From: Anaerobacillus sp. CMMVII
GTDB lineage: Bacteria; Bacillota; Bacilli; Bacillales; Anaerobacillaceae
Assembly (NCBI RefSeq): GCF_025377685.1
Contig: NZ_JACEHK010000002.1
Span: forward strand, 434,001 to 498,000
Reading direction: 5' to 3'
Length of the DNA stretch: 64,000 bases
Below, piece by piece: positions 48,187-52,952 of this stretch. A program made the position numbers and the translations under genes. The notes beneath the pieces are model-generated. The model was not told the origin of the DNA and did no database searches. It worked only from the letters and a program-made list of their open reading frames with translations. Position 1 is the first letter of the stretch, and the number at the start of each line of letters is the position of its first letter.

Positions 48187-49286
48187 AATATATAATTACG
48201 CAAATCTCGAAAAACGTGTGCATTATGCAATGTTTGGATAAAGACCAGGAGAACCGGTCCAATGATTAACCCTAAAAAACCAAAAAGCTTGTACCCAATA
48301 AATAACGAAACTAAAGTAGCTAAAGGATCAACGCCGATACTAGAGGAGAGAATTTTGGGCTCCATGATCTGCCGTTGGATAACAACCACCCCATAAAGAA
48401 CAGATAATCCAATGGTCAATGGTAATTGTCCTGAAAAAAAACTATAAAAAATCCAAGGGAGAAATATTAATCCTGTTCCTAAATAGGGGAGCAGGTCAAC
48501 GACCGCAATAATAAGAGCAATTGTTATAGGGTATTCAACTTTTAAAACGAGTAAGCCAATCAACACGATACAACAAGTAATGGAGATCAAAGTTAGTTGG
48601 GCAAACAGAAATCCAAAGAACGCTTTCTTTAAACTAATCATCACATCTTTTGTTCTATCAACGATAACATCCGGAATCCATTTTCTAAAAATAAAAACAA
48701 GTTTATACCAATCTTTACTAATGAAAAACGTTGCCAATAAAGAAAAAATGATTACAGATGCTAAATTAGGTAATCCTAACAGAAAGTCAGAAATACCAGT
48801 TAATAAGGATTGAATAGTTAAACTAGCGGTAGATGTAATCTGTACAGTAATTGTTTCAATATATGCTAGGATTGTTGCTTGATGATCACTCTCTAAGGAA
48901 TAGAATAAAGTAGAAATCTGTTCATAAATAGGAATGATTCTACTAGTGAACATATCCTGAAAACTATAGATCAGTGTTTGAAAATGGAATGGGACAGATT
49001 GTGATAAGTAATTTGTTCCCATGATAATTTCTGATAGCAAAAAAGTTATTGAAGCAATGGTAGTTGCAAGTAAGCAAACAAGGACGATTGTAACAGAGAG
49101 CCATCTAGTTATCCTTGCTTTTTCTTGAAGAAAATTAACAAGAGGATTTAAGAAAAAGGCCAAAATAAGTCCGAATATAAAAGGATATGCTATCTTAAAT
49201 GCAAAAAATATAGTTAAGAAAATACCGACTATGATTACTAGAACGAAAATGAGTTTCAGTAGAATTTGAAAGTAGTTTGAATTCAA
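48174..49286 (-). CDS. ytvI: sporulation integral membrane protein YtvI (AI-2E family)
   Basis: A 370 aa protein with seven to eight membrane helices in the AI-2E/TqsA-type arrangement: two N-terminal helices, a central soluble loop (residues about 70-150), then four to five helices ending LGLIIGPVLLVFIQTLHNAH. Family members export small molecules or ions; YtvI is linked to sporulation in B. subtilis. TTG start with AAGGGGGTAG upstream. It converges with fxsA. Confidence 0.86.
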   Translation of the reverse strand: MNSNYFQILLKLIFVLVIIVGIFLTIFFAFKIAYPFIFGLILAFFLNPLVNFLQEKARITRWLSVTIVLVCLLATTIASITFLLSEIIMGTNYLSQSVPFHFQTLIYSFQDMFTSRIIPIYEQISTLFYSLESDHQATILAYIETITVQITSTASLTIQSLLTGISDFLLGLPNLASVIIFSLLATFFISKDWYKLVFIFRKWIPDVIVDRTKDVMISLKKAFFGFLFAQLTLISITCCIVLIGLLVLKVEYPITIALIIAVVDLLPYLGTGLIFLPWIFYSFFSGQLPLTIGLSVLYGVVVIQRQIMEPKILSSSIGVDPLATLVSLFIGYKLFGFLGLIIGPVLLVFIQTLHNAHVFRDLRNYILKKG

Positions 49287-49347
49287 CAGGTTTCTACCCC
49301 CTTTCTATAAATTTCTATTACCGTATATATATGGCTTGTATACATAA

Positions 49348-49370
49348 TTTAGAATGTAGAATTTGGGCTT
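49348..49370 (+). repeat. family 2 half-arm fragment
   Basis: AATTTAGAATGTAGAATTTG resembles the left arm of the diverged copy near 36400. No complementary right arm follows. Confidence 0.35.
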
Positions 49371-49537
49371 TAAAAAGCGATTATTTTTTAAGAAGAAACT
49401 AGTTAAAAGCGATAAAATATAATATTTGAAAAACTTTATTCGGAATTTGGACACAAAATAGTCTTGAATCTTGGCGAAAGATTTATTTCTATGTTAAGAT
49501 AAAAATGGTTAGGCCTACCAAGGAAGGATGCATACTT

Positions 49538-50011
49538 TTGATTTCACAAGCAACAACTTTTATGCTAATTCTATTAGTCATTGGTATTATTGCAAAAAAT
49601 CAATCATTAATGATTGCTGTTGTTTTTTTATTACTTGTAAAATTGATTGGTTTTGGTGACAAAGCTTTCCCTCTCATACAGCAAAAGGGGATACAAGCGG
49701 GTGTTACAATAATTACTATTGCGGTACTTGTACCGATTATTACTGGTCAAATAGGTTTTAAGGAACTCTTTGATTCAATGAAATCTATGTATGCTTGGAT
49801 TGCATTAGGTGCAGGAATATTTGTTGCTGTTATAGCTGCAAGTGGGATTGAATTATTGCAAACAGATCCCCATATAACCGCAGCCCTAGTACTCGGAACG
49901 ATTTTAGCAGTTGCACTTTTTAACGGTGTTGCAGTTGGTCCGTTAATAGGGGCGGGGATTGCCTATTTGGCAATGAGGGTTGTAAACTTTTTTAGTTCGA
50001 TTGGTCCTTAG
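49538..50011 (+). CDS. ytwI: DUF441 membrane protein YtwI
   Basis: A 157 aa protein with four or more membrane helices (ATTFMLILLVIGIIAKNQSL at the start, GVTIITIAVLVPIITGQIGF in the middle). The GIIAKNQSLMIAVVFLLL stretch is typical of the family. TTG 49538 is preferred: GGAAGGA lies 9 bases upstream and the N-terminus then matches other members; the ATG at 49505 has no SD. Function unknown. It lies before citZ as in B. subtilis. Confidence 0.83.
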   Translation: MISQATTFMLILLVIGIIAKNQSLMIAVVFLLLVKLIGFGDKAFPLIQQKGIQAGVTIITIAVLVPIITGQIGFKELFDSMKSMYAWIALGAGIFVAVIAASGIELLQTDPHITAALVLGTILAVALFNGVAVGPLIGAGIAYLAMRVVNFFSSIGP

Positions 50012-50020
50012 GACTAGTCT

Positions 50021-50038
50021 TCGTGAAAGTTTTCACAA
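50021..50038 (-). promoter_or_regulatory. Rex-like operator upstream of citZ
   Basis: Reads TTGTGAAAACTTTCACGA on the minus strand, one mismatch from the Rex consensus TTGTGAAnnnnTTCACAA. It is 36 bp before the citZ -35. Redox (NADH) control of the TCA genes is an inference. Confidence 0.5.
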
Positions 50039-50074
50039 GAATTAAAATAGTCGGAATTTATTTTAAAATTAAAG

Positions 50075-50103
50075 TTCACAAAACTGTGAAAAATGTTTAT
50101 AAT
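50075..50103 (+). promoter_or_regulatory. sigma-A promoter of citZ
   Basis: TTCACA (50075-50080), 17 bp, TATAAT (50098-50103). The -35 is part of a dyad TTCACAaaacTGTGAA. The start codon is about 280 nt downstream, giving a long leader that includes CATTACTTTAATAATG flanked by AAAAAGCC and GGCGTTTTT (50164-50211). Confidence 0.65.
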
Positions 50104-50389
50104 TAAATTTGTAAGAAAACTCTTTTTGTACATAAAGTGATCTTCCCAAAAAAGAGGATATTCAAAAAGCCCTAAATTCATTACTTTAATAATGCTGGCG
50201 TTTTTGGAACAATATGTTCAATAAGGAACAAAATAATATTTTACTATAGAACATTAAACCTATTGAATGAGAGATTAGTAGATTTAAAATCGTCGGCAAC
50301 ACTGCTTTAGGACTTTTTGGAAGGCTGTCTTTGTTTCACACGTGTAAGTAACGTACATTCTATTCTATTCGTAAAGGAGAGGTTGAGAA

Positions 50390-51505
50390 ATGAGTACAAC
50401 TCGTGGTCTTGAAGGTGTTGTTGCAACAACGTCGAGCGTAAGCTCAATTATTGATGGGGTTTTAACGTACCATGGTTTTGATATTGATGATTTAGCAAAT
50501 AATGCAAGCTTTGAGGAAGTAATTTTCCTTCTATGGAACGGTCGTCTTCCTAAGGAAGAGGAATTAGTTCAACTAACAGAGGAATTAGCTAGTTATGCAG
50601 AAGTTCCACAGGGTGTTATTGACCAAATGAAGATGTATCCAAATGAAGAGGTTCATCCAATGGCAGCATTACGAACAGCCATTTCAATCTTGGGATTGTA
50701 CGATACAGAAGCAGATGATCAATCTGAGGAAGCAAATAGAAGAAAAGCCCTAAAGCTGCAAGCGCAAGTGCAAACTGTCGTGACAGCGTTTTCACGTATT
50801 CGTGAAGGCAAAGAACCTGTAGCGCCTCGTAAAGATTTAGGTTTTGCTGCAAACTTCCTATACATGCTTACTGGAGAAGAGCCAGATGCAATCGCTGTAA
50901 ATGCTTTTAATAAAGCATTGGTCCTTCATGCCGATCATGAGTTAAACGCTTCAACATTCACAGCTCGTGTATGTGTTGCGACATTATCTGATATGTACTC
51001 TGGTGTTACTGCTGCAATTGGTGCTTTAAAAGGACCTTTACATGGCGGAGCAAACGAAAGAGTAATGGCAATGTTAATGGAGATAGAAGATGTTGACAAC
51101 GTAGAACCATATATCATGAATGCATTAAATAATAAGGTGAAAATCATGGGCTTCGGTCACCGTGTGTACAAAGATGGTGATCCTCGTGCTAAGCATTTAA
51201 AGGAAATGTCAAAACAGTTGACAGCGATTACTGGGGAAACGAAATGGTATGAAATGTCTATTAAAATTGATGAAATTGTAACTCGTGAAAAAGGTTTATT
51301 ACCAAATGTAGATTTCTACTCAGCTAGTGTATATCATAGCTTAGGAATTAAGCATGATTTGTTCACACCAATCTTTGCGATTAGTAGAATGTCAGGCTGG
51401 ATTGCACACATTTTAGAACAATTTAGTAATAATCGATTAATTCGTCCTCGCGCAGAGTACATTGGTCCTGACAAGCAAGTTTACATTCCAATCGACCAAC
51501 GTTAA
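50390..51505 (+). CDS. citZ: citrate synthase
   Basis: Condenses oxaloacetate and acetyl-CoA. 371 aa, the short Gram-positive type. Signatures: N-terminal STTRGLEGVVATTSSVSSI, catalytic His in LHADHELNASTFTARV, GPLHGGANERVM and GFGHRVYKDGDPR. AAAGGAGAGG precedes the ATG. First of the citZ-icd-mdh set, each with its own gap. Confidence 0.97.
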   Translation: MSTTRGLEGVVATTSSVSSIIDGVLTYHGFDIDDLANNASFEEVIFLLWNGRLPKEEELVQLTEELASYAEVPQGVIDQMKMYPNEEVHPMAALRTAISILGLYDTEADDQSEEANRRKALKLQAQVQTVVTAFSRIREGKEPVAPRKDLGFAANFLYMLTGEEPDAIAVNAFNKALVLHADHELNASTFTARVCVATLSDMYSGVTAAIGALKGPLHGGANERVMAMLMEIEDVDNVEPYIMNALNNKVKIMGFGHRVYKDGDPRAKHLKEMSKQLTAITGETKWYEMSIKIDEIVTREKGLLPNVDFYSASVYHSLGIKHDLFTPIFAISRMSGWIAHILEQFSNNRLIRPRAEYIGPDKQVYIPIDQR

Positions 51506-51596
51506 TTAAGTGTGTTCGGGAGTTCAGTCAATCTTTCATATAGATACAGAGATTGTACCGAGTGGAAATTTCATACATAAAATTGGAGGGGGACTC

Positions 51597-51665
51597 TTGT
51601 TGTACCACCAATCCTTGAAATTTTCATATCTCCCATTACATAATAATTCTAGAAAAAAGAACTAG
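51597..51665 (+). CDS. possible 22-residue leader peptide before icd
   Basis: GGAGGGGG (51585-51592) sits 5 bases before TTG TTG TAC CAC. The frame is 22 codons, M-L-Y-H-Q-S-L-K-F-S then a basic end, and stops at 51663-51665, touching the icd SD. It could be a coupling peptide or a chance frame. Confidence 0.3.
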   Translation: MLYHQSLKFSYLPLHNNSRKKN

Positions 51666-51680
51666 TAGGAGGTAATAGTA

Positions 51681-52952
51681 ATGGCAAATGGCGAAAGAAT
51701 TACTGTACAAGATGGGGTTTTAAATGTTCCTAATAATCCGGTAATCCCTTTTATTGAGGGGGATGGTATCGGTCCTGATATTTGGGCTGCTGCTTCTCGA
51801 GTATTGGATGCTGCTGTTGAGAAAGCATACAATGGTGAAAAGAAAATTGTTTGGAAAGAAATCCTAGCAGGTGAAAAAGCTTTTGAACAAACAGGAAACT
51901 GGTTACCAGAAGAAACACTTGATGCTGTTCGTGAATATATCATCGCAATCAAAGGTCCTTTAACAACTCCTATTGGTGGGGGGTTCCGTTCCCTTAACGT
52001 TGCTCTTCGTCAAGAATTAGATTTATATACTTGCTTACGTCCTGTTCGTTATTTCAATGGTGTTCCTTCTCCAGTTAAGCGCCCTGAAGACACAGATATG
52101 GTAATTTTCCGTGAAAACACTGAAGATATCTATGCTGGAATTGAGTGGCAAAAAGGTTCTCCAGAAGTTCAAAAAGTAATCGAATTTTTGCAGAATGAAA
52201 TGGGAGTTAAAAACATCCGTTTCCCTGAAACTTCTGGTATTGGGATTAAACCAGTATCTGAAGAAGGAACTCAACGTTTAGTACGTGGAGCAATTGAGTA
52301 TGCGATTAAACATGGTCGTAAGAGTGTTACTCTAGTTCATAAAGGAAATATCATGAAGTTCACAGAAGGAGCTTTCAAAAACTGGGGTTATGAGTTAGCT
52401 GAAAAAGAGTACGGTGATAAAGTCTTCACTTGGGCTCAGTATGATGAAATTGTTGAAAAAGAAGGTCAACAAGCAGCTAACCAAGCACAGGCAGAAGCTG
52501 AAGCAGAAGGTAAAATTATCGTTAAAGATACAATTGCTGATATTTTCCTACAACAAATCTTAACTCGCCCGAGAGAGTTTGATGTAGTTGCTACAATGAA
52601 CCTTAACGGGGATTACATTTCTGATGCTCTTGCTGCACAAGTTGGTGGAATTGGAATTGCTCCTGGTGCAAACATTAATTATGAAACAGGGCATGCGATC
52701 TTTGAAGCTACACATGGTACTGCTCCAAAATATGCTGGCTTAGATAAAGTTAATCCTTCATCAGTCCTATTATCTGGAGAATTAATGCTTCGTCACTTAG
52801 GATGGAATGAAGCCGCTGATTTAGTAATGGCTGCTATGGATTCGACTATTGCCTCAAAGGTAGTAACATATGATTTCGCTCGTTTAATGGAAGGTGCAAC
52901 TGAAGTAAAATGCTCTGAATTTGCTGATGCACTAATCAATAACATGAACTAA
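51681..52952 (+). CDS. icd: isocitrate dehydrogenase (NADP)
   Basis: Oxidative decarboxylation of isocitrate to 2-oxoglutarate. 423 aa. [14 protein letters not shown], the substrate site [23 protein letters not shown] (with the Ser that is phosphorylated in E. coli), and [25 protein letters not shown] precedes the ATG. Between citZ and mdh as in B. subtilis. Confidence 0.97.

Follow-up and report, generated by a model that had tools for sequence, protein, structure and literature searches.

The citZ locus

The window (the whole 64-kb stretch of DNA analysed here) comes from a genome of 4.87 Mb and contains the gene order DUF441 gene-citZ-icd-mdh. Anaerobacillus species are alkali-loving, mostly anaerobic bacilli that are known for anaerobic respiration. 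Citrate synthase, the product of citZ, sets the entry of carbon into the TCA cycle and hence the yield of NADH. Among named relatives, the closest CitZ proteins are those of Anaerobacillus arseniciselenatis (93% identity) and A. alkalilacustris (91%). The locus was compared across seven Anaerobacillus genomes, which are the window's own (G000) and six further members, and with citZ loci from outside the genus. Some species occur twice in the locus set (e.g., L004/L046 and L006/L047), so that counts of loci are not counts of species. The features of the locus are as follows.

50021..50038, + strand: Rex-operator-like 18-bp dyad TCGTGAAAGTTTTCACAA (reverse strand TTGTGAAAACTTTCACGA), 1 mismatch to TTGTGAAN4TTCACAA
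50039..50074, + strand: A/T-rich block from the dyad to the -35, possibly an UP element or the site of another regulator; genus mean identity 0.89
50075..50103, + strand: citZ core promoter TTCACA-17-TATAAT, 11/12 consensus bases
50075..50090, no strand assigned: dyad TTCACAAAACTGTGAA over the -35, the left arm being the widely kept -35 itself
50110..50389, + strand: predicted citZ 5' leader of about 280 nt, placed by the -10 position
50161..50176, + strand: 5' arm of P1, the outer long-range helix (UUCAAAAAG.CCUAAA); duplex -10.3 to -15.1 kcal/mol in 7/7 members
50193..50200, + strand: 5' arm of P2, the inner long-range helix (UGCUGGCG); duplex -7.5 to -15.0 kcal/mol in 7/7 members
50215..50230, + strand: inner hairpin UGUUC-N6-GAACA, 93.5% of cells paired
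50260..50281, + strand: inner hairpin CUAUUGA-N8-UUAGUAG, 87.8% of cells paired
50291..50298, + strand: 3' arm of P2 (CGUCGGCA), pairing with 50193-50200
50306..50322, + strand: 3' arm of P1 (UUUAGGACUUUUUGGAA), pairing with 50161-50176
50373..50382, + strand: Shine-Dalgarno sequence AAAGGAGAGG; its predicted pairing near 50324-50332 does no better than in shuffled alignments
50390..51505, + strand: citZ, citrate synthase, 371 aa (PF00285, E 1.2e-137)

The promoter and the transcript start

The exact promoter form TTCACAAA-N15-TATAAT is present at all seven genus loci and, beyond the genus, at 71 of 101 loci. Because the form is kept so widely, there is good support for a predicted transcript start near 50110 and for a leader of about 280 nt. 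A leader of this length had been proposed in the initial annotation, and the position of the -10 agrees with it. Nothing in the comparison points to a start downstream of 50211, which by the initial annotation would have counted against its reading. Promoter positions put the leaders of the seven members at about 280-375 nt.

A second dyad had been described on the -35 itself. It is there and in the window it is perfect (TTCACA-AAAC-TGTGAA). However, half of it is promoter, and at up to two mismatches the window has 5 such patterns against 5.34 expected, hence no enrichment. The right arm reads TGTGAA exactly in five genus members and TGTGGA in the other two, and at this position ACTGTTAA, AGTGTAAA or something similar stands in several sister genera. 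It was set aside as a separate operator because one arm is the widely kept -35. As a regulatory element this dyad is unproven.

A Rex-like dyad upstream of the promoter

The initial annotation also pointed to a Rex-like site one base off the consensus, and this is what lies at 50021-50038. Within the window it is the sole match to TTGTGAAN4TTCACAA at up to two mismatches. However, 0.90 such matches are expected per window and 60 of 100 shuffles contain at least one, so a single match is unremarkable by itself. Since one such match alone is weak, the case for a Rex site is carried by conservation at citZ.

Six of the seven genus genomes have the dyad at citZ, with one mismatch in G000 and G002, two in three members and three in one (L005); a perfect Rex dyad at citZ is found in none of the seven. 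In all six carriers the outer bases are T and A, as fits Rex, and the left arm reads CGTGA or AGTGA, so that TGTGA is never intact. The genome without a dyad is that of A. alkalilacustris (L006), where the full stretch upstream of citZ was inspected and the A/T-rich block and the promoter are kept.

What if the dyad has no regulator at all? The conserved block might then be no more than promoter upstream DNA, such as an UP element, and the likeness to a Rex site a coincidence. Pairwise identities within the A/T-rich block are 0.67-0.97, and in five of six comparisons the conservation of these 36 bp roughly matches or exceeds that of the dyad beside them. A. alkalilacustris, in keeping the block and promoter without the dyad, fits this explanation, as does the finding that control motifs also have matches in the genus genomes (see below). 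However, G002 is the most diverged carrier and yet has a dyad identical at all 18 positions, the next 36 bp being only 67% and the leader 62% identical. In addition, conservation begins at the left edge of the dyad. Among the six members other than L006, identity jumps from 0.54 in the 12 bases before the site to 0.92 within it. Coincidence is a serious but rather unlikely explanation. A conserved Rex-type operator at an unusual position upstream of citZ is, from sequence, plausible and unproven.

The position is unusual for Rex, which is mostly known for repressing promoters that it covers. With the start placed near 50110 by the promoter TTCACA-17-TATAAT, the dyad is centred near -80. Compared with the Rex operators of B. 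subtilis and S. aureus (TTGTGAAW4TTCACAA), the 18-bp inverted repeat is the same but for one mismatch, and the DNA-binding domain of Rex is nearly identical. The differences are the target, citrate synthase, the centre about 80 bp upstream of the start, and the spacer. The latter is AGTT, with three A/T bases of four, where the consensus has a purely A/T spacer of 4 bp.

Outside the genus, Rex sites (up to two mismatches, 500 bp) stand before citZ at 4 of 101 loci (L055, L056, L064, and L068). The L064 sequence, from Halalkalibacter wakoensis, is TTGAGAAAACGTTCACAA. It lies 149 bp upstream of citZ, differs from the Rex motif at one position and overlaps the -35 with its right arm; in L055 there is a version with two mismatches. 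The promoter fixes the right arm of the L064 match, which may therefore be due to chance.

Rex and its candidate targets in the genus

The Rex DNA-binding domain (PF06971) is encoded in all seven genus genomes. The Rex of the window's genome matches B. subtilis Rex 2VT2 over its length (E 1.9e-109), and the winged helices of the two are nearly identical. The initial annotation had made its Rex reading depend on a rex gene, and the genome has one. With the domain in 7/7 genomes, a near-identical Rex and the site in 6/7, a Rex (redox) input at citZ is plausible. Rex binds DNA at high NAD+ and releases it when NADH rises.

How well does a match to the motif predict a Rex site? At up to one mismatch there are 12 sites in G000 against 3 for a reversed-motif control. 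In the seven genus genomes together there are 47, of which 17 are perfect, against 18 for the control, so that up to about 38% of the genus sites may be chance. At up to two mismatches the G000 count of 64 compares with 48 for the reversed control, which makes two-mismatch sites mostly noise. S. aureus Rex is reported to bind sites with one and three mismatches with a Kd of 0.12 and 0.27 uM, respectively, compared with 0.057 uM, which is about 2-fold and 5-fold weaker (PMC2883068).

Ten of the 12 G000 sites with up to one mismatch stand before a gene or before a candidate roxS. In the genus, the target survey covered 46 of the 47 sites, the 47th being the G002 citZ site itself. For genes that recur, one or two representatives per kind were searched against families and the other copies were assigned by eye. 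NADH-dehydrogenase-like flavoprotein genes have five sites in four genomes; NCBIfam places these proteins only among pyridine nucleotide-disulfide oxidoreductases, below the cut-off. Other sites of up to one mismatch precede genes for DcuA/B (two genomes), a carrier of the sodium-symporter family (two), pyruvate formate-lyase (one), and a second pckA (one).

Two small genes recur. In four genomes (L034:1501-1797, L134, L136, and L141) a perfect Rex motif lies 22-36 bp before the start of an 85-aa protein resembling those of Fe-S biogenesis; tested for L034, it matches PF01521 with 22 bits, just below the cut-off of 26.3. From its sequence context this gene is likely to be a Rex target. In five genomes (L033:1501-1874, L135, L143, L171, and L177) a site of up to one mismatch lies 107-123 bp upstream of a membrane-protein-like ORF of 76-80 aa, for which no Pfam or NCBIfam match was found (tested for L033).

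Two further observations concern single loci. At L032:1501-3018 a perfect Rex motif precedes a TatA-like ORF (assigned by eye) and the gene of a molybdopterin oxidoreductase. Residues 1-408 of the oxidoreductase best fit the respiratory arsenate reductase ArrA (416 bits; the full-length cut-off is 1600). This suggests that arsenate respiration might be under redox control. Second copies of pckA have a strong upstream dyad in two of three cases (L234 and L232), reading TTGTGAAACGATTCACAA in G004 and ATGTGAAACACTTCACAT in G000, the latter with FNR-like outer bases. The third copy (L233) has a 3-mismatch match only.

The initial annotation had suggested a search for other Rex sites, at ldh, cyd, and ndh. 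The result is mixed. NADH-dehydrogenase-like genes and a candidate roxS do have them. However, within 500 bp upstream of the family match and at up to three mismatches, no site was found for ldh (0/7), and cydA has one 3-mismatch match among eight loci. By the same measure aconitase has none (0/6), nor has the main pckA within 600 bp upstream (0/7). Upstream of rex itself there are 2-mismatch sites in two of the seven genomes, G000 and G003.

A possible RoxS route

In B. subtilis, Rex is reported to reach citZ indirectly, via the small RNA RoxS (PMC5419742, PMC10433868). RoxS is repressed by Rex and lowers citZ mRNA and protein (PMC5419742, PMC10433868, PMC8216469). The initial annotation had described redox control as an input different from those of B. 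subtilis citZ. This stands in so far as a direct Rex input is plausible here, and falls in so far as the RoxS route had already been reported there.

Perhaps, then, the sole redox input to Anaerobacillus citZ is indirect, with Rex repressing roxS and RoxS pairing with citZ mRNA. A candidate exists in G000 (L042:1327-1518). It is RsaE/RoxS-like, although a weak match to the model (25 bits, E 0.99, below the Rfam cut-off of 79). The candidate lies in the gap between a yjbH-like gene, so assigned by eye and given no name by NCBIfam, and pepF, and this gap has three Rex-like sites in L042. In S. aureus, RsaE lies between these two genes. G004 and G002 (L170 and L185) have this gap too, again with Rex-like sites, which brings the locus to three genomes. 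In two of them, G000 and G004, gap sites have the same T-to-C departure as the citZ site; the G002 gap has a different 1-mismatch site.

The B. subtilis precedent and these gaps favour a RoxS-only explanation, which is compatible with a dyad that has no regulator. However, it leaves the conserved dyad upstream of citZ unexplained, and a duplex between the candidate RoxS and the leader was rejected because it is no better than shuffles (131/200 as low). As the sole redox input, RoxS is unlikely. Like the RoxS/RsaE circuit, a direct Rex input would join NADH sensing by Rex to citZ, and the genus has a candidate roxS with Rex-like sites; the difference is that RoxS/RsaE acts on mRNA and here a direct site at the citZ promoter is possible in addition.

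A possible CRP/FNR-family site

Another way to read the upstream dyad is as a site for a regulator of the CRP/FNR family, acting as a class I activator at about -80 under anaerobic or respiratory conditions. Candidate regulators of this kind are encoded, since G000 has eight HTH_Crp_2 matches that pass the family cut-off and each genus genome has 6 to 8. The distance from the start suits an activator. In Bacillus the core of Fnr/CRP sites is TGTGA-N6-TCACA, and Fnr sites prefer outer A and T. The core of the dyad, CGTGA-N6-TCACA, is one base off this, and the second pckA copy of G000 provides an A/T-flanked dyad (ATGTGA...TCACAT) elsewhere in the genome. However, the arm and outer bases conserved at citZ do not favour this reading. 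The left arm is never an intact TGTGA in the carriers, and the outer bases are those of Rex sites in 6/6. A CRP/FNR site, though unlikely, is a serious competitor of the preferred reading of the dyad as a Rex operator.

CcpC, CcpA, and aconitase

B. subtilis citZ is reported to be under the control of CcpC, CcpA and aconitase (PMC8514465, PMC13288900, PMC7430163), the latter by binding to the citZ leader (PMC7430163). The details of the CcpC box given there concern citB. Anaerobacillus shares with B. subtilis the presence of icd and mdh after citZ, the core promoter type of most relatives and a long leader. In contrast, the known regulatory sites are hard to find. An exact CcpC box (ATAA-N7-TTAT) is present at citZ in one of seven members (L005), where it is inside the leader, downstream of the promoter, and within 500 bp upstream of aconitase in none of six. 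A candidate CcpC box at 50047-50061 (ATAG-N7-TTAT) is one base off, and is not claimed because its spacing shifts in several genus members.

Matches to cre are similarly weak. From the promoter to the start codon, the best match to TGWAANCGNTNWCA has three mismatches in six genus members and two in one. Of the outside loci with a recognised promoter, 58 of 76 have a match at up to two mismatches; these are raw counts, and the comparison left out the 25 loci where no promoter was recognised. Thus, by these simple patterns, good CcpA sites are rarer at Anaerobacillus citZ than in relatives. A loss of CcpA control is not certain because another cre consensus has a 1-mismatch match in the L002 leader and one that overlaps the L004 dyad; there is none in the window species.

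A folded leader

A further difference from B. subtilis citZ is that, among the genomes searched, the sequence and fold of the leader are found in this genus alone. A domain of about 160 nt, enclosed by P1 and P2 and containing two inner hairpins, is common to all seven species. For the hairpin at 50215-50230, part of the aligned stretch is absent in L006. In the leader of G003 (L003) about 80 nt are inserted inside the domain and both helices are intact.

The fold was assessed in a MAFFT alignment that was not fitted to the structure. In it, 91% of cells pair, a share that drops to 32-49% once partners are slid. For the domain, the consensus energy of -18.7 kcal/mol compares with -1.4 (sd 1.5) in column-shuffled alignments (0/200). 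For the whole leader plus the start of citZ it is -34.8 against -14.3 kcal/mol, with 0/200 shuffles as low. The effect is local. The 5' part of the leader contributes no consensus energy, the 3' part with the Shine-Dalgarno sequence is not significant (31/200 shuffles as low) and neither is a coding control alignment (54/200). An anti-Shine-Dalgarno helix, predicted in the alignment of this 3' part, was rejected accordingly. ORFs listed in the leader are not conserved in frame, as judged by eye, and an upstream ORF was likewise rejected.

Covariation is thin. There are two double-changed cells, a number reached by 90 of 500 shuffles, and P2 has one G-C to U-A double change plus several one-sided changes. 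The arms of P1 and P2 are nearly invariant, which leaves few compensatory changes, and the fold therefore rests on consensus energy. Folded as a single sequence, the window leader is no more stable than shuffles (z 0.17).

A covariance model built from the seven leaders (R1) scores 117-181 bits at citZ in all seven genus genomes and reaches at best E 0.15 in the rest of them. In a search of 390 other genomes from the order, made with stricter filters and six candidates scored per genome so that weak matches may be lost, it gave one 32-bit match (G351), by unrelated genes. The model was also run on 92 citZ sources, the window and 91 other loci, with L021-L030 left out. No upstream region of the 91 has a match with E <1, and the best match outside the window, of 26 bits (L051), is downstream of the gene. 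Rfam has no family at its cut-off for 49000-52000, where the weak matches (E 3.8-4.2) are to two snoRNA families and SECIS_4. The leader thus resembles the cis-regulatory leaders of Rfam in being a conserved folded 5' leader and differs in belonging to no family at its cut-off. The folded leader is well supported and, in the genomes compared, known so far from this genus only.

The initial annotation had read a nested terminator-like hairpin near 50164-50211, and this did not hold up. No terminator is called there and there is no U-run. Folded singly, the sequences do not differ from shuffles in stability (z 0.17 and -0.69). The local hairpin, in which UUCAAAAAGCC can pair with GGCGUUUUUGGAA, reaches -10.5 kcal/mol in the window species and only -2.2 to -5.3 in the other six, while a distal strand is the partner of its 5' arm in 7/7 species. 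With its arms belonging to the conserved helices P1 and P2, and the terminator reading rejected on the terminator scan and lack of conservation, a leader that works as a transcription attenuator is highly improbable.

A possible mechanism

The tentative reading preferred here, with a probability of about 0.42, is that the common Bacillales-type citZ promoter has been rewired in Anaerobacillus. In place of cre/CcpC sites there would be a moderate-affinity Rex operator, at 50021-50038, and a P1/P2 leader that controls the mRNA. The sequence of the dyad is observed and its binding by Rex is supposed. At -80, Rex would most likely not be a simple block to polymerase, because the dyad is centred outside the -35/-10. 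If Rex acts there, it might support transcription or displace another upstream regulator. There is a slight lean towards a supportive Rex because NADH build-up would then lower citZ transcription, the same direction as the release of the candidate RoxS and as the B. subtilis RoxS circuit. An activator role, for which no site is known, has been proposed for Rex in S. mutans (PMC3441419).

The second part of the reading concerns the RNA. A transcript from about 50110 would carry the domain of about 160 nt, whose fold comes from comparison and whose function is proposed. Most likely the domain would bind a protein or small RNA and thereby control how stable the mRNA is or how it is translated; it would not be a Rho-independent attenuator. 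By analogy with B. subtilis citZ, aconitase is the first candidate partner.

In other Bacillales the place of the dyad and leader is often taken by a cre-like CcpA site, and in some by a CcpC-like box. Have they taken over the same task? That a genus-restricted cis-regulatory RNA (P1/P2) and an upstream Rex operator have replaced CcpA/CcpC control at TCA entry is conceivable but improbable. In the open-licence literature searched, no description was found of a Rex site at citZ or of the Anaerobacillus citZ leader. This is weak evidence of novelty because the search was limited to open-licence papers.

Significance for Anaerobacillus

The P1/P2 domain is a concrete candidate RNA element. The dyad bears on whether Rex acts directly on the oxidative branch of the TCA cycle, and from which position. 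In the model Bacillus, citZ responds to citrate and sugar signals, and to NADH via a small RNA. Anaerobacillus appears to have altered both the DNA and the RNA parts of citZ control and to have kept the promoter, which suggests a different control over entry into the Krebs cycle in this genus. If the proposed rewiring is true, an anaerobic lineage would read redox and an RNA signal (aconitase, a small RNA or a metabolite) at this step, rather than sugar and citrate.
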